From positions 1 through 35,084 of the IMG/VR virus record IMGVR_UViG_3300019776_000110: 35,084 bases of DNA, one strand, 5' to 3'. Both the position numbers and the translations under genes were made by a program. Source of the stretch: a virus. Under the pieces are notes generated by a model that made no database searches, had not been told where the DNA came from, and saw only the letters and a program-made list of their open reading frames with translations. Positions within the stretch are counted from its first letter, which is position 1. Every line of letters starts with the position of its first letter. Positions 1,760 to 35,084 of this stretch are shown piece by piece.

Positions 1760-2056
1760 TTAAACAGATGTAGCTGCAAACCAAGCGTAATCGCCAGAAG
1801 CCATAGTAGTCGCTGGGCTTGTGTAAGAACCGCCAGAAGCAGTTACTACAAAAGTTGAAGCGTTAATAGAGCAAGTAGCTGTTGAAGCTGTAATAGCTGC
1901 GCCAGCCTTAGCGAAAACATAACGCTTACCATCAGAACCAAACACTTCAGCACCTAAAGGGCCGAATGTTGGAACTGTTGTACCAGCGCTGTTTGGGTTA
2001 GTCGTAGTTAAACCAACAAGGTCTACACCAGACAAAGGGGTAATTGTATATGCCAT
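1760..2056 (-). CDS. Small head protein, possible capsid decoration protein
   Basis: A 98-residue protein, almost free of charge and rich in Ala, Thr, Ser and Gly, with alternating beta-type segments (AAITASTATCSINASTFVVT). It directly follows the major capsid gene and is cut off from later genes by a strong terminator, so it is co-expressed with the capsid protein at high level. That position and composition fit a capsid decoration or head-stabilising protein, but no family motif was recognised. ATG at 2056 with AAGGAAAA upstream. Confidence 0.5.
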   Translation of the reverse strand: MAYTITPLSGVDLVGLTTTNPNSAGTTVPTFGPLGAEVFGSDGKRYVFAKAGAAITASTATCSINASTFVVTASGGSYTSPATTMASGDYAWFAATSV

Positions 2057-2083
2057 GATAATTTTCCTTAAATGTTAGTTCGA

Positions 2084-2995
2084 TTAAGCAATCAAAACGC
2101 CCTGTAAGAAGCTGTTTGATGTAGTAAGATTGCCGGCCCAGCCAAATAATTTGACGATGGCGTCTTGGTTTATCGACTGACGCTCACCACCGATAGGCAC
2201 AAAATTACGCTCTTTATGTGGACGTAAGAAGATGTAGTTAGTGTTCAAGAACCACATATGGTTAGCTGTAGCTTGTGAGCCATAACCACCACCAAGAACC
2301 ACATCAGCAGATGTACCACCACCGTAGAACTTCAATGAAGCGAAACCAGCAGCTGCTGATTCTTCAGAAGTGATACGTTGGATAGCTTGCAATGACTGAA
2401 CATACAATGAGTAGTAGTTATTGTCAGCTACGATTAAGTCAGCTTTGTCTGTACCACGAACTAATTGGATAGCCAAAGAAGTCATGTATTTCTGAATGTT
2501 AGTGTAAGCAACAGCAGCACCACCATCAGCAACACCAGCATACTTCTTAGATTGCCAGAAAGCCCAGTTAGCACGGTTAATACCACCGTAAGTACCAGTA
2601 GTCGGATCATCAGGTACAGCGGCTGCTAGACCAGTAATGTTCTTACCACCGTTACCAGTACCGTCAAGGTACAAGTCACCAGAAATGCGGTTTAACAAAC
2701 GAGCTTCAGAAACTTGCATACGACCATCTAACAAGTCGATGATTGCTTCTTTAGAGCTGTTTTGTAACATTTCTAGACCAGACATAGTAACCGCATCAGC
2801 GTACTGAGTAATTGAATACTGAGCAGCAGAAATTGGGCTATCTGGTTGAATATTGATAACTTCGTAGCCAGAGTAGCTATTTGCGTTATTAGTATTCGGG
2901 TCGTTATACATAATCTCTTCAAGAATTACGTTACCGCCTGAGAATGGGCGAATGTTGCCTTTTTTCTCAAGTCTTTGAAGAATTGCGTTGTTTTG
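2084..2995 (-). CDS. Major capsid protein, exon 2 (residues 29-331)
   Basis: The second exon of the major capsid protein: join 3833-3750 and 2995-2084 gives 331 residues. It starts CAA AAC AAC, continuing the exon-1 frame into ADNLT-QNNAILQRL, a sequence like the conserved N-terminal ADNxTxNNALL of one family of about 330-residue phage capsid proteins. Further segments such as FSGG, YSGYE and the region after VTMSGLEMLQNSSKEAIIDLL also fit. An HK97-type fold is assumed from the family. The in-frame GTG at 2998 is not a real start: its last G (2996) is the terminal G of a group I intron. Scaffold lies upstream and a small head protein downstream. Confidence 0.85.
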   Translation of the reverse strand, partial: QNNAILQRLEKKGNIRPFSGGNVILEEIMYNDPNTNNANSYSGYEVINIQPDSPISAAQYSITQYADAVTMSGLEMLQNSSKEAIIDLLDGRMQVSEARLLNRISGDLYLDGTGNGGKNITGLAAAVPDDPTTGTYGGINRANWAFWQSKKYAGVADGGAAVAYTNIQKYMTSLAIQLVRGTDKADLIVADNNYYSLYVQSLQAIQRITSEESAAAGFASLKFYGGGTSADVVLGGGYGSQATANHMWFLNTNYIFLRPHKERNFVPIGGERQSINQDAIVKLFGWAGNLTTSNSFLQGVLIA

Positions 2996-3749
2996 CACTT
3001 TTTTACGTCTTCGGCTCTTTATCCGAAGCTCCTGAATATTCCTATTCAGAGAAGACTATATCATCAAGTCTTATATCTCAATTCACAAGCCCTTTTACCA
3101 CCTAATGATGCTGCTTCTAGTGATGGTTTTTGACCAAGACGCTTTTTTGTTGCACTAATCTTTGCGCCATGATTTTTAGGCTTGCCTAACTGAGCAAGTC
3201 TACGCTTTTCTATTTCCTCAGGGCTTTGTTTTCTACCTTTATTGGAGTAGCTTCCAAAACCTTTTTTAACAGCCATAAACGAATTCAGATTGGTGTTGTA
3301 TAAGCGTTTTTGTTCTTCAAAAATCTTAAACCATTTCAATTCTGCTTCTCGTTTCTCTATTACTGAGGCAGTAGCTGGTAATTCTTCTAGCACCATGATG
3401 TTAAATGCATCTTTACCGTATTTATCCCATCCTTCTTGCAATCCCTTTTCGTTGTGCTTGTGATTATTAAGCAAACAACGGTGTTCTCGCATCCGTTTGA
3501 GCAAATTGGCTGAAGTACATCCAACATATGCCATCCCATCTACTGTATTACCTAAAGCGTAAATCTTAATCATTCGGGATTCCCCTCTGTAATTTATAAA
3601 ACCTGTCGGGCGCTCGTGTCAGGATTATTCTTTCGTCACCTGTTAGTCGTTACACCTTCCAAAGACCTTTTACATTCTCTGGCTTGGCTCGGTATTGTCC
3701 GTTCTGGATGTCCACCGAATTCACCCGATTTTATACTTGGCCCAAATTA
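2996..3749 (-). ncRNA. Group IA self-splicing intron in the major capsid gene
   Basis: The 754-nt intron begins TAATTTGGGCCAAGTATAA, much like the T4 td intron start, and ends with G (2996). Visible core, in minus-strand order: P1 pairs exon CUUGACU with intron GGCCAAG including the U-G at the splice site; P3 TCGGGTG (3728-3722) pairs with CGCCCGA (3612-3606); P4 uses CGGT and ACCG; P7 GACTA (3648-3644) pairs with TAGTC in GATATAGTC (3058-3054). Extra hairpin sequence between P7 and P3' (CAGG...CCTG) marks subgroup IA. After P7' come two short hairpins, CTGAATA/TATTCAG and CTTCGG/CCGAAG. The P8 region holds the GIY-YIG gene. Exact ends are inferred from the pairing and the protein frame. Confidence 0.92.
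3064..3573 (-). CDS. Intron-encoded GIY-YIG homing endonuclease
   Basis: 169 residues. The N-terminal GIY-YIG nuclease domain shows KIYAL (3-7), AYVGCTS (15-21) and RMREH (27-31); the first Gly of GIY is Lys here. Residues about 100-165 hold repeated NUMOD3-type DNA-binding segments (GRKQSPEEIEKRRLAQLGK and a similar GAKISATKKRLGQK). Such enzymes cut intron-less alleles so that the intron is copied in; the target here would be the capsid gene near the exon junction. The gene lies in the P8 region and its last codons run up to the P7' strand. GAGGGG is its ribosome-binding site, but GGG/CCC within GGGGAATCCC can pair, partly hiding it. ATG at 3573. Confidence 0.9.
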   Translation of the reverse strand: MIKIYALGNTVDGMAYVGCTSANLLKRMREHRCLLNNHKHNEKGLQEGWDKYGKDAFNIMVLEELPATASVIEKREAELKWFKIFEEQKRLYNTNLNSFMAVKKGFGSYSNKGRKQSPEEIEKRRLAQLGKPKNHGAKISATKKRLGQKPSLEAASLGGKRACELRYKT

Positions 3750-3833
3750 AGTCAAGTTGTCTGCCAATTCACCGCTACGAGATTGAATAGTCGTTGCGAT
3801 GATGTCGGTAATCGCTGAGTTAGCAAATCCCAT
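3750..3833 (-). CDS. Major capsid protein, exon 1 (residues 1-28)
   Basis: ATG at 3833 with AAAGGAT seven bases upstream; encodes MGFANSAITDIIATTIQSRS then GELADNLT, after which the genomic frame meets TAA at the first intron bases. The 28 codons are 84 nt, so exon 2 continues in phase. The last exon base is U (3750), which pairs as the U-G wobble typical of group I 5' splice sites. Without splicing only a 28-residue peptide is made from this start, so capsid production depends on the intron. Confidence 0.85.
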
Positions 3834-3857
3834 GATTTCATCCTTTATTAAAAGTTA

Positions 3858-4937
3858 TTAAAGCCTGTTATTCAGATTAGATAAAACTTGTTCTTCTAAT
3901 ACTGAACGCCTGTCTTTCTTGTCTGTTGCTACAACTTGTCCACTAGGTGTAATGGATCGAGGGCTGACGGCAGCAGATTTAGCTTTCTGAACACGCTGTT
4001 GGTTTTGCACTTGGTTCTGGCGAGCTTGAGTTAGTGTTTTTAACTCTAGTTCCCGTACTTGAGGGTTTAACCATCTAGCAGTTTCATAAGCTGATGCAAG
4101 GTCTTGGGCTTTTCCACTCTCAAGTAATTGAGCCATTTCTTCCCGTAACGCTTCAAAATGCGGATATTTTGCATCCGCAGCAAACTTACTTATTTCGCTC
4201 TGCAAGATTTGATTCTCTTGCTGTTGTTTCCAACTACCAACTTGCTGAACTTGTTGCTGTAAAGCGTTGATTTGTTGAGCCAACATTTGAGCCTGTGGGT
4301 CTTGGTACTGTGTTGCACCATTACCCGCATAAGCTAAGTTTAAATCTATTCCATAGCTTTTTGCAAGGTCATTAAACATACTTAATTTTTGTTCATATGG
4401 AGCTTGCGTTAAAACCATGTGCGCTCTGCCTAAGTTATTTACCCAAGCAGCTGGATGGATGCCATTCTTTTGTAATTCAGGCACAAAAGGGGCAATCGCT
4501 TCCGTTAAATGTTTAGCATTGTCGGCTTCTGCCTTATAAGCAGATACGCCTTTTTTAAATTCGTTTTCTCGTTGGACATTGTATTGAAGCAACTGGCGAG
4601 CTTCATCTTGTGACAAGCCTTCGCCTTTATCCAACTTATCCCATAATGGTAGGTATTCTTTCTTCCAAGTCGTAGGTCTAGCTACGGTTGGTACATATTC
4701 TTTAGGTTCTTCGATTACTTCTTCAGTTGTATCTTGGCTTGCAAAACGCTGTTCCTGAGCTTGTTCTTCCTCTTCAACTGGCGCAGCTTCCTCTTCAGAT
4801 TGGCGACTAACGAACTGTCCTTTTTCGTTGCGTATAGGGTCATCATTAACCTCAATTTCTCGTTCTACAGGGGTTTCCAATGTGCCTTCTTCGGCTTTAG
4901 ACATTGCTTCTTCTAGTGCGCTGCGTAAATCTGCCAT
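3858..4937 (-). CDS. Scaffolding protein
   Basis: 359 residues, highly charged and predicted mostly helical. Residues 1-90 are acidic (runs of Glu such as EEEAAPVEEEEQAQEQ), the middle is helical, and residues 205-260 are Gln-rich coiled coil (QMLAQQINALQQQVQQ), with a basic C-terminal third (QNQQRVQKAKSAAVSPRS). This composition and its place directly before the capsid gene fit a head scaffold, which templates capsid assembly and leaves before packaging. ATG at 4937 with TTAGGAG nine bases upstream. Confidence 0.75.
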   Translation of the reverse strand: MADLRSALEEAMSKAEEGTLETPVEREIEVNDDPIRNEKGQFVSRQSEEEAAPVEEEEQAQEQRFASQDTTEEVIEEPKEYVPTVARPTTWKKEYLPLWDKLDKGEGLSQDEARQLLQYNVQRENEFKKGVSAYKAEADNAKHLTEAIAPFVPELQKNGIHPAAWVNNLGRAHMVLTQAPYEQKLSMFNDLAKSYGIDLNLAYAGNGATQYQDPQAQMLAQQINALQQQVQQVGSWKQQQENQILQSEISKFAADAKYPHFEALREEMAQLLESGKAQDLASAYETARWLNPQVRELELKTLTQARQNQVQNQQRVQKAKSAAVSPRSITPSGQVVATDKKDRRSVLEEQVLSNLNNRL

Positions 4938-4961
4938 CTTGCTCTCCTAAGTAATCAGGGT

Positions 4962-5348
4962 TTATCGGTATCTAAGTTTTGAATAAGTCGCTTCTGCGAT
5001 TGCTCGCTTTCTTGCTTCTTGGGATTGTTTGCTAATTTCTTGGGTTTTTTGTTGAGTTGGTACGTCATTACCAAGCTCTACCATGCCATGTCTTTTTAGG
5101 TGGTCACGATGCTTACTACGGCTTTCGATCCATGAGCCATCAATTTGGGAAATATAACCGCCAATGTCAGAAGAAACCATGTGAGATTTACGGATATTTT
5201 CTTTTTGTTTTTCTTCCCATGAAGCTTCGGCAGCTTCTTTGCCTATTGTTGGCGTCCACCAGTCAATAAAGCGCTCTTTATCTGACATTTGAGCCACATC
5301 AGTTTGTTCATATTCACTTTTGCATAAAGGGCAAATATGTTTAGCCAT
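4962..5348 (-). CDS. Small phage protein with N-terminal CxxC motif
   Basis: 128 residues, function unknown. The N-terminus starts MAKHICPLCKSEYEQ, a possible metal-binding knuckle, with His residues later (KHRDHLKRHGM) that could complete a site. The C-terminal third is charged and helical. It sits between the glycosyltransferase-like gene and scaffold in the head operon. ATG at 5348 with GGGAG upstream; its start is one base after the glycosyltransferase stop codon. Confidence 0.55.
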   Translation of the reverse strand: MAKHICPLCKSEYEQTDVAQMSDKERFIDWWTPTIGKEAAEASWEEKQKENIRKSHMVSSDIGGYISQIDGSWIESRSKHRDHLKRHGMVELGNDVPTQQKTQEISKQSQEARKRAIAEATYSKLRYR

Positions 5349-6257
5349 CTACATTCTCCCAAGTAATTCAGGTATCTTATTGTATTCGTTTGGTCTTAAA
5401 CAGACAACGCTGTCATACCATCTAGCGTTTTTCCATCGCCAACAAACAAACGATTCCTCTGGCAATAAGACAATACATTTAACGCCTAAAGCACCAGCTA
5501 AATGTGCCGTTCCTGTGTCTACAGTTACAACACCTTTCATGGCTTTCATGTGTGATGCTGTTTTAGACCAGTCTTTTTTCCATCCATCATCAGGTAATGG
5601 GTAAAACATGGCATCTGTTTCGGGATTTAAGGAATATGCGTCATCACCGACTAATTCGTTCATGTGTTCCGCAGAAATAGACTTAATCCAATGCAAAGTA
5701 CCCTTAGATGCGCTCCAATTTACCCCTATTCTTTTAGGAATATTGCTAGGAATTGCTTCAAAATAGCCCTCTGAACCTACAATTTTCTTTTTATTGATAG
5801 GAAATAGTTGTTTTACATAGGGCATTGAGCAATCTATGTAATAAGGTAGTGACATTGAGCCTATCCAATAGTCACATTCATTGGCTGGGCCTTCTTCTGT
5901 CATATTGGTTAGCTGATCAATGCACTCCATCTGCCCTAAAAGTGGAATAAGTGCTGGAACGGCTAAAACAACTAGCTTTTTAGCGCCCATAACCTTTAAA
6001 GCTGGTAAAAATCGAGCATATTGGAATATATCCCCGAATCCTTGCTCCATTTGAACGACAATAGTCTTGTCAATTAGCGATTCACCAGACCAAGGGCGTG
6101 GCCACATTGGCTCTCTTTTATAAGGGATAACCTGATTGGCTAAGATAGCTGGATGCCATCTGTATTCAAATAGCCTAAATCCAGCTTGGTATCTGCCGTT
6201 ATGTAAATGGTCGTATGCCTTCTTGTATTCGGCATGAGGGTCTACATTAGTAATAAT
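5349..6257 (-). CDS. TPR-type glycosyltransferase-like protein, apparent non-AUG start
   Basis: A GT-B (heptosyltransferase/GT9-like) fold is suggested by MEQGFGDIFQYARFLPALK near the N-terminus of the core and TVDTGTAHLAGALGVKCIVL near the C-terminus, the donor-site region. Such proteins occur in phage structural operons and may glycosylate a virion protein. The first ATG (6107) lies inside the domain: the frame upstream encodes the usual N-terminal part (LHNGRYQAGFRLFEYRWHP), and is open back to stops just before 6265. No ATG, GTG or TTG exists there; two ATT codons at 6257 and 6254 follow GAGGA by 6 and 9 bases, so an AUU start is proposed (302 or 301 residues). It overlaps the upstream gene end. 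Confidence 0.65.
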   Translation of the reverse strand: MITNVDPHAEYKKAYDHLHNGRYQAGFRLFEYRWHPAILANQVIPYKREPMWPRPWSGESLIDKTIVVQMEQGFGDIFQYARFLPALKVMGAKKLVVLAVPALIPLLGQMECIDQLTNMTEEGPANECDYWIGSMSLPYYIDCSMPYVKQLFPINKKKIVGSEGYFEAIPSNIPKRIGVNWSASKGTLHWIKSISAEHMNELVGDDAYSLNPETDAMFYPLPDDGWKKDWSKTASHMKAMKGVVTVDTGTAHLAGALGVKCIVLLPEESFVCWRWKNARWYDSVVCLRPNEYNKIPELLGRM

Positions 6258-14591: not shown

Positions 14592-14755
14592 AATTCTAAT
14601 AATCCTTCTTCTAATCGTTTACGGGCTTTTGATCCACGTTTTTGTTCTGCAAGTTCAAGGTATTTTCTGCGTTCAGGTAATATTAAACTTGCTATCCAAC
14701 GTATTTCGCACTCATGCCGATATTGGTCTGAATTTTTATCATCAAATAAGTCCAT
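14573..14755 (-). CDS. Small protein, possibly DUF7696-like
   Basis: 60 residues. The pattern RHECEIRWIA, RRKYLELAEQKRGSKARKRL resembles a small family seen in phages and provisionally matched to DUF7696; the function is unknown. It starts 14 bases inside the end of the methyltransferase gene. Confidence 0.55.
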   Translation of the reverse strand: MDLFDDKNSDQYRHECEIRWIASLILPERRKYLELAEQKRGSKARKRLEEGLLELWKLKK

Positions 14756-15986
14756 CTTCTACCATTTGAATTCGATTGCCTATCCATTTCATTACAGGAA
14801 CTGCCATTGAGTTACCTAATGCTTTGTATCTTGGGCCATCAGGGCAGTTTTCTTTGATATTAGTATAGTTATCAGGAAATCCTTGCAGTCTTTCACATTC
14901 AACAGGAGTTAATCTGCGAACTGCCATGCTTTGAATAACACCACCTACATGATCAATGCAACCTGTTCCACGAACTGTTTGAGTTGTTTTATTGTTTGTA
15001 GTTCCATTGTAAGTATCAACTCCAACTGCTATTTGTTGATCCTGTAAAGTTGATAAAGTAAATGCTTTTTCATCCTGACCAAGATAACCCTTACCGCCAC
15101 CTTCGCAACCCCCTCTGACTTTAAAAGCATGGGCTAATGGCACATTATTTCCACCTGTTCCCCATCTAGCAGTTACAGTAGGGCTAATATCAACAGGTTT
15201 TATTCTGCTATCCGTTCCATGATTTTCATAAACTTGGGCCACCATTTTTGCCATATCTGGATTGCAGTCATCAGCACTAATGCCTTTGTAATCTCTAGCA
15301 GTTAATGGACCACTAATTTTAGTGGCAATCATATTGAATCCATTAGTTTTACTGTAGTCATTATTTGTTGTTTGGAAACCGTTAGCAATGCTTGGTACAA
15401 AGGTGGTGGTAGTTGTTTCCCCCTTTTTTCTGCTCTTTTTAGAATCCCCTGACAAGCTTTCGAACTCAAATAATACTTTTGCGGTAGGTTTCCAATCTCC
15501 AAGATGTCCGACAACAAACACTCTTCTTCTGCGCTGTGCGACTCCGAAGTGTTGAGCATCCAACACTCTGTAGCTGAACCCATACCCGAGTTCAACCAAC
15601 GCCCCGAGGAAGGATCCAAAATCCCGTCCTTTGCCTGAACTGAGGACACCCGGCACGTTTTCCCAAACGAACCACTTGGGTCTAAACTTGTCAAGAATTC
15701 CACAATAGGTGAGTGCAAGATTTCCCCTTGGGTCATCAAGTCCTTTTCTAAGACCTGCAACGCTAAATGATTGACAGGGAGTTCCTCCGACCAAAAGTCC
15801 AATTGTTCCAATTTCCCACTCCTTATATTTAGTCATATCGCCCATATTTGGGACTAATGGATAATGATGTTTTAATACTTCACTAGGAAATTTCTCAATT
15901 TCACTATAAGCAGCAGCTTCCCAACCCATGTCATGCCAAGCAACTGTCGCAGCTTCTATTCCAGAGCATACTGAAAGGTATCTCAT
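14742..15986 (-). CDS. dcm: C5-cytosine DNA methyltransferase (Dcm type)
   Basis: 414 residues from ATG 15986. All key blocks are present: AdoMet-binding YLSVCSGIEAATVAW (3-17), catalytic GGTPCQSFSVAG with Cys71, WENVPGV (108-114, the Glu-Asn-Val block), QRRRRVFVVG (151-160), then a long variable target-recognition region, and at the end RRLTPVECERLQGFPD and GNSMAVPVMKWIGNRI. No cognate restriction enzyme is nearby, so it is an orphan that probably protects phage DNA. The start overlaps the upstream gene as ATGA; the frame runs 11 codons further up, without need. The recognition site cannot be read from sequence. Confidence 0.93.
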   Translation of the reverse strand: MRYLSVCSGIEAATVAWHDMGWEAAAYSEIEKFPSEVLKHHYPLVPNMGDMTKYKEWEIGTIGLLVGGTPCQSFSVAGLRKGLDDPRGNLALTYCGILDKFRPKWFVWENVPGVLSSGKGRDFGSFLGALVELGYGFSYRVLDAQHFGVAQRRRRVFVVGHLGDWKPTAKVLFEFESLSGDSKKSRKKGETTTTTFVPSIANGFQTTNNDYSKTNGFNMIATKISGPLTARDYKGISADDCNPDMAKMVAQVYENHGTDSRIKPVDISPTVTARWGTGGNNVPLAHAFKVRGGCEGGGKGYLGQDEKAFTLSTLQDQQIAVGVDTYNGTTNNKTTQTVRGTGCIDHVGGVIQSMAVRRLTPVECERLQGFPDNYTNIKENCPDGPRYKALGNSMAVPVMKWIGNRIQMVEDGLI

Positions 15987-16351
15987 GCCATCGCTTTCTT
16001 TGCCATAACTAGCAAACATTTTTCTTTTAATTGATGAAAAGTAAGACCTACACTATGAACTCCAAGTTCGGCAGCTTTAGCAACGATGCCAGCTTCTGTA
16101 GCCATCCATGATTTGTCTTCTTTGACTTTAACAGTCATGTCTAGCTCATCTTCCCAACGACCTTGATTGATCCATGTGGTTGCATGAGGTATGTATTCTG
16201 TTTCGGTGTTTTTTAGTTTCCAGTATTGGATATGGTTTGGTAATGCTTCTAAAGCATCTGCCTGTTTTAGCTTAGATAAGCGGTTCCACGCTTTTTCTGC
16301 CATTTTTTTACTTACTTTTCTAGGGTATAACTTCCAAAATTCATTAAACAT
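15983..16351 (-). CDS. Replication-protein C-terminal-like domain protein
   Basis: 122 residues. FWKLYPRKVSKKMAEKAWNR and YIPHATTWINQGRWEDEL are the hallmark of the C-terminal domain found in many phage replication initiators and DnaT-like proteins, where it binds DNA or partners. Here it stands alone without the usual N-terminal winged-helix. It may load host replication machinery, since the phage has no polymerase or helicase. It is the first gene of its operon, just after a promoter with a 5' hairpin. Confidence 0.75.
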   Translation of the reverse strand: MFNEFWKLYPRKVSKKMAEKAWNRLSKLKQADALEALPNHIQYWKLKNTETEYIPHATTWINQGRWEDELDMTVKVKEDKSWMATEAGIVAKAAELGVHSVGLTFHQLKEKCLLVMAKKAMA

Positions 16352-19026: not shown

Positions 19027-19178
19027 CTTATATATCAAAGTGCAAACATGGTAAATATTTAGATATGTGTCGTATATGTTTTCCATTGCCTGAGCCATCT
19101 GAAGCCATAAAAAAATTTGCTGAAGAAATGACCAAAGTATATGTTGAAGAAATGAATAAGAAAGCGAGTGAGAAATGA
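19023..19178 (+). CDS. Very small protein with CxHG and CxxC motifs
   Basis: 51 residues. CKHG (7-10) and CRIC (16-19) could bind one zinc; the rest is helical and ends MNKKASEK from the junction repeat. ATGA overlaps the DpdA-like gene. Function unknown. Confidence 0.55.
   Translation: MTYISKCKHGKYLDMCRICFPLPEPSEAIKKFAEEMTKVYVEEMNKKASEK
19158..19178 (+). repeat. Gene-junction repeat, copy 5 (partial)
   Basis: Last 21 bases of the repeat (TAAGAAAGCGAGTGAGAAAT then GA), at the start of the DpdA-like gene. Confidence 0.7.
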
Positions 19179-20053
19179 CTATTGAAGAATACTTTAAGCT
19201 TCATGCGCCACAAACTTATCAAGCTTGGTTAGTTTATAAAAAAGAACATCAATCATGCCCACCTTGTCATGGTGATTGCAATCAAGGTAGGAATTGCCCA
19301 CTTAGAAAGAATGAAATGATTCATTATCATGGATTACCAATAACACCAGCTACAGTAGCTAATTATGCTGTGCAAGCTGGCCATGCTTTTGTTTCTTATG
19401 CTCATCCTGATCAAATAGGAACTGCTATAGAAATATGTCAATCATTTGCAATAGATAATGGAGCTTTTTCAGCATGGAAATCAGGAAAACCAATTACAGA
19501 TTGGACAAATTTTTATGATTGGGCTTTAGAACTTAAAAAAGTACCTTCTTGTGATTTTGCAGTAATCCCAGATGTCATTGATGGAACAGAATCAGATAAT
19601 GATGCTTTGCTTGAAGATTGCCCATTTCCTAAATGGTTTGGATCTCCTGTATGGCATATGCACGAATCTATGGAAAGATTAGAAAGATTGGCTAATAACT
19701 ATGTCAGGATTTGTATTGGTAGTTCTGGTGAATATGCAACTGTAGGTACAAATGCTTGGTGGTCAAGAATGGCAGAAGCTATGAGAATAGTTTGTGATGA
19801 CAAAGGAAGACCAATTTGTAAATTGCATGGATTAAGAATGTTAGACCCAGCAATATTTACAAAGTTTCCATTTAGTTCTACTGATAGCACCAATATTGGT
19901 AGAAATGTAGGAATTGATAGCAAATGGAGAAATGGCAATTACCCAGCTCCAACAAAAGAATCAAGAGCGCAAATTATGAGAATAAGAATTGAATCCCATA
20001 ATGCACCTTCTGTATGGAATTTTATGCAAATTGAACAAAAGGAATTATTTTGA
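19175..20053 (+). CDS. dpdA: DpdA-like 7-deazaguanine DNA transglycosylase
   Basis: 292 residues, resembling the TGT-related DpdA family that exchanges guanine for preQ0-type bases in DNA. FAIDNGAFSAW (91-101) matches the DSGGFQ/DSGAF-type motif with D94; AVIPDVIDG (129-137), RICIGSSGE (178-186) and KLHGLRML (216-223) fit the barrel core; SSTDST (234-239) places D237 where TGTs have the nucleophilic Asp. The first 45 residues add a Cys cluster, CPPCHGDCNQGRNCP, not expected in the core. queD follows with a stop/start overlap, strong support for the pathway. Start at ATG 19175 overlaps the preceding gene; a shorter form from Met48 is possible. Family assignment is by motif, not by a search. 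Confidence 0.75.
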   Translation: MTIEEYFKLHAPQTYQAWLVYKKEHQSCPPCHGDCNQGRNCPLRKNEMIHYHGLPITPATVANYAVQAGHAFVSYAHPDQIGTAIEICQSFAIDNGAFSAWKSGKPITDWTNFYDWALELKKVPSCDFAVIPDVIDGTESDNDALLEDCPFPKWFGSPVWHMHESMERLERLANNYVRICIGSSGEYATVGTNAWWSRMAEAMRIVCDDKGRPICKLHGLRMLDPAIFTKFPFSSTDSTNIGRNVGIDSKWRNGNYPAPTKESRAQIMRIRIESHNAPSVWNFMQIEQKELF

Positions 20054-20436
20054 AACTAACTCAAACATTTGTATTTGAAGCAGCACACACATTAAAAGGT
20101 AGGTCTATAAATGTCCTAGACAAATTAAATTCTGAGAATATTCATGGGCATACTTATTATGCAAGCATTTCTTATGAAGGAGATGTTAATAAAGATGGCA
20201 TGGTTAAAGATTTTGGACATATTAAATGGGCTGTTGATGTCATCATAAGAGAGCTTGATCACAAATTTTTAGACAATATAGAAGATTTGGGAAGACCAAC
20301 AATGGAAAATCTTTGTTTGTTTATAGCTAAAAGATTAGAAAAAAGTGATTCTAAATTGTGCGAAGTTACTGTTGAAAGAAAAGCAACTGGCGATAAATGC
20401 ACTTATGAATTAAAAAAGGAAAAAAATGATAATTAA
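20050..20436 (+). CDS. queD: QueD-like 6-carboxytetrahydropterin synthase
   Basis: 128 residues. QueD makes 6-carboxy-tetrahydropterin for preQ0, the base inserted by DpdA. Zinc ligands H13 (FEAAHTL) and H32, H34 (IHGHTYY) are present, as are the LDHKFL Asp-His pair, GRPTMENL and the late VERKATGDKCTY with Glu. The Cys that normally lies four residues before HGH is Ser28 here. FolE, QueE and QueC are absent, so precursors must come from the host. The start is TTG 20050 with AAGGA upstream and a TTGA overlap with dpdA. Confidence 0.85.
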   Translation: MKLTQTFVFEAAHTLKGRSINVLDKLNSENIHGHTYYASISYEGDVNKDGMVKDFGHIKWAVDVIIRELDHKFLDNIEDLGRPTMENLCLFIAKRLEKSDSKLCEVTVERKATGDKCTYELKKEKNDN

Positions 20437-21175
20437 ACAAAAAAATTCAGAGAGTTCACATTGGTACACAAAAACTGGTGAATCAGCCTACCAAGTTGAA
20501 GCTAAAAATGGTGAGATGCGAGCTACTACCCTTAGAGATGCTCGTAAGCTTGATTTAGTTCCTAGTGTAACCACTATCTTGGGTGTTGCAGCTAAACCAG
20601 CGCTTAATACATGGTTACAAACTCAGGTTTTATTGTCAGCTTTGACATTGCCCAGAGAACCTAACGAACCTGAAAAAGATTGGTTAGAGCGAGTAATGGC
20701 TGATTCTAAGGTTCAGGGTAAACAAGCTGCTGAACGTGGGACTGCTATTCATAGCGTTATTGAAAGCTATTTTGAGCAACAATCACTAAGAGAATGGCCA
20801 CAATATGTTAAGAACGTAGAGAAAGCCCTTTTTGACACGTTTGGAAGCCAACTGTGGAACTCTGAAAAGTCTTTTGCCCATGAGTTAGGGTACGGGGGGA
20901 AAATCGATTTAAGCGCTGATGGCGTGGTTGTAGATTACAAAACAAAAGAAAGCCCCTTAGAAAAGGTAGAACCTTACCATGAGCATATTCTACAACTAGC
21001 TGCTTATAGGCATGGTTTAAATATGCCAAATGCTCGCTGTGCTATTGTTTTTGTAAATGGCACGACCAATGAAGTAAAACTTTGCGAGATACCAGAAGAA
21101 GAACTTAAAGATGGTTGGGAATGTTTTAAGCATTTATTGTCTTTCTACCAAATAAAAAACAAACTGTTGCGCTGA
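20426..21175 (+). CDS. PD-(D/E)XK exonuclease
   Basis: 249 residues. Motifs in order: GTAIH (105-109), GGKIDL with D161, VVVDYKTK with D170 and K172, and HILQLAAYRHG (187-197), the RecB/Cas4-type nuclease core. With the SSB-like protein it probably resects ends for recombination or degrades host DNA. It has no Cas1/Cas2 neighbour and no four-Cys cluster, so it is not a CRISPR Cas4. ATG 20426 has AAGGA upstream and overlaps queD by 11 bases. Confidence 0.85.
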   Translation: MIIKQKNSESSHWYTKTGESAYQVEAKNGEMRATTLRDARKLDLVPSVTTILGVAAKPALNTWLQTQVLLSALTLPREPNEPEKDWLERVMADSKVQGKQAAERGTAIHSVIESYFEQQSLREWPQYVKNVEKALFDTFGSQLWNSEKSFAHELGYGGKIDLSADGVVVDYKTKESPLEKVEPYHEHILQLAAYRHGLNMPNARCAIVFVNGTTNEVKLCEIPEEELKDGWECFKHLLSFYQIKNKLLR

Positions 21176-21482: not shown

Positions 21483-21555
21483 TATTTTAAAAGGGTTGTT
21501 TTTGGGGGCTTGTTTTATGTTGCCAGTAATTTTATGGGTTTATGGAATCATTTAA
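21475..21555 (+). CDS. Tiny single-span membrane peptide
   Basis: 26 residues, MLDILKGLFLGACFMLPVIL then WVYGII: one hydrophobic transmembrane segment. AGGAG lies eight bases before the ATG and the start overlaps the previous gene by eight bases, so translation is plausible. Function unknown; such peptides may alter the membrane or host proteins. Confidence 0.5.
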   Translation: MLDILKGLFLGACFMLPVILWVYGII

Positions 21556-21565
21556 GGAGAATATG

Positions 21566-22039
21566 ATGAACCAGAAATTTTTACAAGAACTTTTTGAATA
21601 CAAAGATGGTGATTTGTATTGGAAAAACCATAAATACAAAGCTTGGAATGGGAAAAAAGTTGGTACGATTGCCACAAATGGTCGTGTTTACATAGGAGTT
21701 AAAGGAAAATCTTTTTTAGCTCATCGTTTGATTTTTTTGTTCCATCATGGATATTTGCCAAAATTTTTAGATCACATTGATGGAAACCCATTAAATAATA
21801 AAATTAATAATTTACGAGAAGCAACATCTAGTCAAAATGCACAAAACAGAAAAAATCAAAAAAATAATACATCTAATGTTAAAGGCGTTACTTGGCATAA
21901 ATTATCTAAAAAATGGCAAGTAAGATTAGGCGTTGATGGCAAAGAAAAATATTTTGGTTGTTATTACGATTTACAAGTAGCTAAATTCGTTTCAGAAACA
22001 ATGAGATATAAATACCACAAGGAGTTTGCAAAATGTTAA
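21566..22039 (+). CDS. HNH endonuclease with AP2 domain
   Basis: 157 residues (158 if the adjacent ATG at 21563 is used). The HNH core is HRLIFLFHHGYLPKFLDHI followed by DGNPLNNKINNLREAT; the C-terminal AP2-like DNA-binding part includes SNVKGVTWHKLSKKWQVRLG. A free-standing homing endonuclease. AAGGAG precedes it, and ATCAT/ATGAT (21547-21551 and 21563-21567) can pair to cover the start. Its last codons contain the ribosome-binding site and first seven bases of the next gene, typical of insertion between genes. A start at 21542 would lack a ribosome-binding site. Confidence 0.85.
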   Translation: MNQKFLQELFEYKDGDLYWKNHKYKAWNGKKVGTIATNGRVYIGVKGKSFLAHRLIFLFHHGYLPKFLDHIDGNPLNNKINNLREATSSQNAQNRKNQKNNTSNVKGVTWHKLSKKWQVRLGVDGKEKYFGCYYDLQVAKFVSETMRYKYHKEFAKC

Positions 22040-34544: not shown

Positions 34545-35030
34545 ATGGAAGAATGGAAAAATGTAGTTGGTTTTGAGGAATTGTATGAAGTTTCTAATCA
34601 TGGACAAATACGATCCAAAAAAACAAATAAAATTAAAAAGCCAACTTACAGCAAACAAGAAAAGCGACTTTATGTTGGATTGTGGAAAAACAATAAAATA
34701 AAAATTTGCAAGCCACATAGGCTTGTTCTTGAAGCTTTTATTGGTCAATGTCCGCAAGGAATGGAAGGCTGTCACAATGATGGAAATTCCATAAATAATC
34801 ATATTTCCAATCTTCGCTGGGATACTCCAAAAAACAATCATGCCGATAAAATTAAACATGGTACTACTAATCGTGGTGAGCGTTGCGGAACTGCAAAATT
34901 GACTCTTGAACAAGTTAGAGCAATTCGTAAAGACGATAGACTTCAGCGGATTATTGCAAAAGAATATCAAGTTCAACAAAGTCTTATTAGTCGCATTAAA
35001 AATGGCGTTAGATGGCAACATGATATTTAA
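34545..35030 (+). CDS. HNH homing endonuclease with NUMOD4 domain
   Basis: 161 residues. NUMOD4 part: EEWKNVVGFEELYEVSNHGQ; HNH core: HRLVLEAFIGQCPQGMEGCH followed by NDGNSINNHISNLRWDT; a C-terminal helix-turn-helix (AKLTLEQVRAIRKDDRLQRI) for specificity. It is inserted between the neck adaptor and the gp10-like gene. The gene crosses the contig end: bases 1-45 repeat its 3' part. Its stop overlaps the convergent neck gene stop. Confidence 0.9.
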   Translation: MEEWKNVVGFEELYEVSNHGQIRSKKTNKIKKPTYSKQEKRLYVGLWKNNKIKICKPHRLVLEAFIGQCPQGMEGCHNDGNSINNHISNLRWDTPKNNHADKIKHGTTNRGERCGTAKLTLEQVRAIRKDDRLQRIIAKEYQVQQSLISRIKNGVRWQHDI

Positions 35031-35084
35031 CTGCCATACGAAGTGTCAGGAATATTAGCCCAAGAGATAAGCACTTCGCTTGGA
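34986..35084. repeat. Terminal direct repeat, right copy (circular overlap)
   Basis: Exact copy of bases 1-99. Positions 35027-35084 repeat the 3' end of the neck-protein gene annotated at 42-944. Treat one copy as redundant; the unique circle is 34,985 bp. Confidence 0.9.

Follow-up and report, generated by a model that had tools for sequence, protein, structure and literature searches.

A likely two-gene, host-reliant unit for 7-deazaguanine DNA modification in a phage: a compact DpdA coupled to a serine-type QueD

A pair of overlapping phage genes, dpdA and queD, is likely to form a two-gene unit for 7-deazaguanine DNA modification that relies on its host for the rest of the pathway. The genes lie in a viral record of 35,084 bp (hereafter the window, the whole stretch of DNA that was analysed), in which terminase, portal and major head genes are annotated. 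The record carries an identical 99-bp direct terminal repeat at 1-99 and 34986-35084; it is terminally redundant or circularly assembled, and essentially complete. An earlier note, made from the sequence alone, had described the two open reading frames as a DpdA-like and QueD-like pair, and both frames and their 4-base overlap lie where it placed them (Table 1).

The chemistry of such a unit is known. The phage groups of Hutinet et al. are those with the full pathway, with the preQ0 pathway only, with dpdA alone and with the pathway but no dpdA, and the transporter YhhQ correlated with none of them (PMC6884629). A dpdA accompanied by queD and no other pathway gene lies outside these groups; we read it as a new variation on known chemistry. 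The pairing of dpdA with a single supply gene, queD, which is replaced by a transporter gene in sister phages, appears to be undescribed.

Table 1. Features of the dpdA-queD locus and neighbouring genes in the window
Feature	Position	Strand	Basis
dpdA frame as called, 292 aa	19175-20053	+	
dpdA, conserved 245-aa form, predicted TGT-like preQ0 DNA deoxyribosyltransferase, MED16/phrog_887 subfamily	19316..20053	+	phrog_887, MED16, CAjan profile, TGT fold, Met start of relatives
47-codon in-frame N-terminal extension with CPPCHGDCNQGRNCP, probably outside the enzyme	19175..19315	+	blastp to separate ORFs of sister phages
IDNGAF Asp (D47 of 245; D94 of 292), counterpart of the TGT DSGGF Asp, proposed general acid/base	19454..19456	+	invariant in 33 relatives; aligns with CAjan LDSGAFSA
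SSTDST Asp (D190 of 245; D237 of 292), proposed nucleophile	19883..19885	+	invariant in 33 relatives; aligns with CAjan SCDSSS
queD, Ser-type 6-carboxytetrahydropterin synthase homologue, 128 aa, TTG start	20050..20436	+	PF01242; closest solved structures PTPS/QueD
QueD Ser28, where PTPS-I has its catalytic Cys (SxxxHGH vs CxxxHGH)	20131..20133	+	Ser in 28/28 phage and 80/80 bacterial relatives
Overlap of dpdA stop and queD start, 4 bases, TTGA	20050..20053	+	TTG in TTTGA context in 36/40 loci tested (some loci share a contig)
C5-cytosine DNA methyltransferase	14742-16019	-	PF00145, 204 bits
PDDEXK exonuclease, 11-base overlap with queD	20426-21175	same direction as queD	
HNH endonuclease, downstream of queD	21542-22039	same direction as queD	

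The DpdA enzyme and its length

The dpdA frame matches phrog_887 ('queuine tRNA-ribosyltransferase', E 2e-73), and its product is 41% identical to the DpdA (gp38) of Pantoea phage vB_PagS_MED16 over nearly the whole length. The two proteins share the motifs HxHG.PI, DNGAFSAWK, IPDVI.G, W-H-HES, GSSGEY, HGLRMLD and DSTN. MED16 DpdA has been assigned to the 'DpdA/TGT_1' cluster, and LC-MS of MED16 DNA found dADG at about 0.13% of G, though this phage is without preQ0 genes (PMC8306585). From sequence and structural modelling, membership of the window enzyme in the MED16 DpdA subfamily is well supported. The two phages differ in that dpdA stands alone in MED16, whereas in the window it is coupled to queD.

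A more distant link leads to the DpdA of the Enterobacteria phage 9g/CAjan type (Hutinet 2019, PMC6884629). In an hhalign comparison of a window DpdA profile with CAjan DpdA (prob 97.7, E 1.4e-12), 153 residues could be aligned, and the two Asp and the KLH His fall at matching positions. The DNA modification of CAjan is preQ0-based (dPreQ0). CAjan differs from the window in the length of its DpdA (306 aa), in a genome with FolE, QueD, QueE and QueC plus a transporter, and in a QueD of the Cys type. A conserved His, position 196 in 9g, is absent from DpdA2 (PMC6884629). Its likely window counterpart, H171, is invariant and lines up with the His of the KLH motif in CAjan, whose DpdA is of the 9g type; this disfavours membership in DpdA2.

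Among 33 diverse DpdA sequences (31-87% identity to the window) 25 residues are invariant, including D47, D86, H171 and D190. An AlphaFold model built on the alignment of 33 relatives has a predicted TGT fold (pLDDT 86.2, pTM 0.86). The best Foldseek match in the PDB is archaeosine TGT (1j2b, E 1e-3), which appears among other barrel enzymes. After structural realignment this match reaches Z 15.3 over 223 residues, a value also reached by the type IV CBASS protein Cap10 (Cap10-CdnD, 9ntn). With VIA-align, the 50 matches listed consist entirely of TGTs and TGT-like Cap10 (Z 13.6-15.3), bacterial and human TGTs scoring about 14. The predicted fold is thus shared with archaeal and bacterial TGTs over 212-223 residues (Z about 14-15), whereas identity is just 8-11% and the 245 aa of the window enzyme cannot accommodate the additional tRNA-binding or Zn parts.

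Direct sequence searches were less informative. The frame has no match in Pfam, NCBIfam or PADLOC; against PDB sequences, phmmer gave a chance match only and a profile search gave none. A direct hhalign comparison with bacterial TGTs also failed to connect them, so the link to TGT rests on the fold and on DpdA intermediates. The reading of the product as a TGT-related DpdA with IDNGAF and SSTDST motifs, put forward in the earlier note, is borne out by the family HMM, the MED16 and CAjan alignments, the predicted TGT barrel and the invariant Asp pair that these motifs contain.

The same note had suggested that a short, 292-residue DpdA might represent a lesser-known subfamily; this part does not hold. 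Close relatives (about 76-87% identity) begin at the Met at window residue 48 or one residue earlier, and the frame upstream of their dpdA has in-frame stops in most. The 47-residue extension was not found in the dpdA of these close relatives. In blastp, window residues 1-47 match free-standing small Cys-rich ORFs (CPPCHGNCNQGRTCPARK) in four sister contigs (L063, L064, L066 and L081). Judged from these comparisons, the called length reflects either an unrelated small ORF fused in frame or a mis-set start, and the enzyme itself is predicted to have about 245 residues. The length of 292 residues is therefore no subfamily trait.

The serine-type QueD

The queD product matches the PTPS family (PF01242, E 1.5e-25, 90 bits). 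Like QueD proper (PTPS-I, TIGR03367) it has the Zn His triad (H13, H32 and H34) and the pair Asp70-His71, all invariant, and Glu109, which is kept in the phage set. Unlike QueD proper it has Ser where the catalytic Cys would stand, and it scores 71.8 bits against the NCBIfam TIGR03367 equivalog cut-off of 89.25. The CxxxHGH motif is the signature of QueD/PTPS-I, and ExxHGH that of PTPS-III (PMC5041015). Because the CxxxHGH signature is absent, the label 'QueD-like' is given on genomic context only.

The substitution is uniform, with SxxxHGH in 28 of 28 phage relatives. It is also found in all of the 80 nearest bacterial homologues, a set collected with search patterns that skip the Ser position and biased towards the window's own clade by nearness to it. 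A queE gene lies near 75 of these 80 bacterial genes and queC near eight, six of the queC loci also having a DpdA homologue. Broken down by locus, 70 have queE, three have queE, queC and a DpdA homologue, three have queC and a DpdA homologue, two have queE and queC, and two have none of these. In 15 of the 26 genomes tested no PTPS other than the Ser-type protein was found; all 15 have QueC, and TGT is present in 9/9 genomes tested.

In a tree the phage QueDs form a single clade (support 95), and the nearest branches are one QueD from a dpd island and one chromosomal QueD. An annotated phage collection held no close relative of the window QueD; it gave two matches (34-41% identity), the better of which sits within a dpd-like island. 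Ser-type QueD also occurs in bacterial Dpd islands, e.g. MT835580, where it lies beside QueE, QueC and a DpdA-like protein. These islands, unlike the window's pair, are large and multi-gene, and the 443-aa DpdA-like protein of MT835580 has no BLAST match to the window enzyme. In MT835580 ('Bacteriophage sp.') the bacterial-style island spans 1984-6079, and its ORFs, assigned by eye, encode this 443-aa protein, DGQQR (DndB-like) proteins, QueE, Ser-type QueD and QueC.

A loss of Cys might suggest a dead or a folate enzyme. This idea was dropped, given that the bacterial census shows Ser universally, mostly beside queE. Since Ser is universal in phage and bacterial kin, most of the latter beside queE, the Ser-type protein is most simply taken, from sequence and gene neighbourhood, as a functional natural variant of QueD rather than a dead enzyme. 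Our literature search found no paper on a Ser-type QueD. The clade suggests that a substantial set of natural QueDs, most of them in Burkholderiales, goes undetected by the CxxxHGH signature, and it makes the role of the QueD catalytic cysteine testable. Neither the change of Cys to Ser nor the replacement of queD by a transporter gene, described below, was part of the earlier note.

The slot after dpdA and the missing pathway genes

Custom profiles were used to take a census of the slot after dpdA over the close clade. In 85 related contigs the gene in this slot is queD in 31 (a count that includes the window and L085, which is too short for the tree), VUT/YhhQ in 42 (one of them a truncated gene, in L043) and neither in 12; none has both. 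On the DpdA tree, queD versus VUT needs one change. The mutual exclusion therefore amounts to few independent events, as it is nearly a single switch. That said, VUT stands beside dpdA in the cultured phages AB3P2, Phleasolo, Pam5 and Vibrio 1.173, and in the latter three the adjacency recurs on distant branches. Each of the phage QueD relatives that were found shares its locus with a dpdA, which in almost every case immediately precedes queD. A second pathway gene was found in a single case, a run of dpdA, queD and queE (L061:3394-5087), which extends the unit within its pathway.

YhhQ transports preQ0 (PMC5372724, PMC6884629). Because queD, the transporter gene and the neighbouring queE share a connection to preQ0 supply, the position after dpdA looks, from gene content, like a preQ0-supply slot. 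Its occupation by either a synthesis gene or an importer points to the supply of precursor as the limiting factor for DNA modification in infected cells, a testable idea.

A further small gene is found at this position in some sister phages. A protein of about 79 aa, phrog_37496, begins exactly at the end of dpdA in L037:6735-6974 and in about 20 sister loci, often between dpdA and VUT. Its invariant features are C12, H48-E49, GG and HxGVxIxTxR, and Pseudomonas phage Epa33 also encodes the protein, upstream of dpdA. By eye it resembled a mini-QueF (CPxN, FHE, GVxIxTER), an idea that searches with Pfam QueF and a PDB profile did not support.

Searches for the FolE, QueC and radical-SAM (QueE) families found none in the window or in 27 related contigs; a single sub-threshold QueC match, in G014, lies away from dpdA. 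Eight of the contigs in this search (the window and the 27) have VUT/YhhQ, and none of the eight has queD. The 99-bp terminal repeat rules out a contig-end effect, so the absence of FolE, QueE and QueC is meaningful. The earlier note had listed these three genes as missing and expected dependence on host precursors; the first point stands, and it implies that the phage draws on FolE, QueE and QueC of its host. The presence of QueE and QueC in the host is assumed. Prophage copies of the window DpdA were searched for in 399 genomes of one order (centred on Limnohabitans lacus), with no positive control, and none was found.

Proposed function and its alternatives

QueD is the enzyme at the branch point of folate and queuosine. 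On pathway knowledge, this position is why carrying queD alone would make sense. In the mechanism that we propose, host FolE would make dihydroneopterin triphosphate for folate, and the phage's Ser-type QueD would convert it to 6-carboxytetrahydropterin (CPH4), the committed step to preQ0, drawing flux away from folate and towards queuosine. Completion of preQ0 would then fall to QueE and QueC of the host. At certain guanines of the phage's DNA, the presumed substrate, the Asp pair of DpdA would cleave the N-glycosidic bond and preQ0 would be inserted; conversion of the inserted base to dADG is possible, as in MED16. In sister phages the YhhQ-type transporter in the same slot would import preQ0.

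Escape from restriction may be the benefit, and the earlier note had stated that such modification protects phage DNA from many restriction enzymes. This has to be tempered, as the dADG of MED16 (about 0.13% of G) had no noticeable effect on the enzymes tested (PMC8306585).

The low level in MED16, with no noticeable restriction phenotype (PMC8306585), could also mean that the TGT-like enzyme acts mainly on host tRNA or on protein, as with CBASS Cap10, and that the DNA signal of MED16 is a minor side reaction. The tie between Cap10-CdnD and archaeosine TGT as the top structural match (both Z 15.3) fits this idea. However, the sequence kinship of the enzyme is with DNA-modifying DpdA (CAjan, E 1.4e-12), its 245 aa are too few to hold the Zn site and the additional domains found in tRNA TGTs, and the annotated parts of the window showed no CBASS genes. 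We consider a main role on tRNA or protein unlikely.

It is less probable still that the QueD homologue serves the phage apart from DpdA, whether as a PTPS-III-like folate or pterin enzyme or by boosting queuosine in host tRNA, with its position due to chance operon packing. The missing catalytic Cys and the window's ExxHGH, the PTPS-III signature (PMC5041015), would suit such an enzyme, but the Glu of this motif is not conserved, being K, T or N in relatives. Moreover, the tight coupling of dpdA and queD is kept in 36/40 loci, the phage relatives share their loci with dpdA, and the bacterial kin adjoin queE. It is very improbable that the two genes are functionless relics in decay. At first sight the 47-aa N-terminal fusion and the lost Cys resemble damage; yet Ser is shared by the whole QueD clade, the catalytic residues of DpdA are invariant, and both genes are under purifying selection. 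Against relatives, dN is about 0.10-0.12 and dS about 0.9-2.1 for dpdA, and about 0.17-0.18 and 0.9-1.5 for queD (dN/dS about 0.05-0.2 for the two genes).

A host-reliant dpdA-queD unit is thus our preferred reading. A broader proposal we put forward tentatively, and with some doubt: a modular minimal system may combine a compact base-exchange enzyme with one swappable supply gene (Ser-QueD or a preQ0 importer), in some phages with phrog_37496 as a possible tailoring enzyme, and Ser-QueD may be a CPH4 synthase that does without the textbook Cys.

With both dpdA and a C5-cytosine methyltransferase gene, the phage may carry out two kinds of DNA modification. In Pseudomonas phage Epa33 a C5 methylase gene lies directly 3' of dpdA. 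In the window, queD is followed by genes for a PDDEXK exonuclease and an HNH endonuclease (Table 1).
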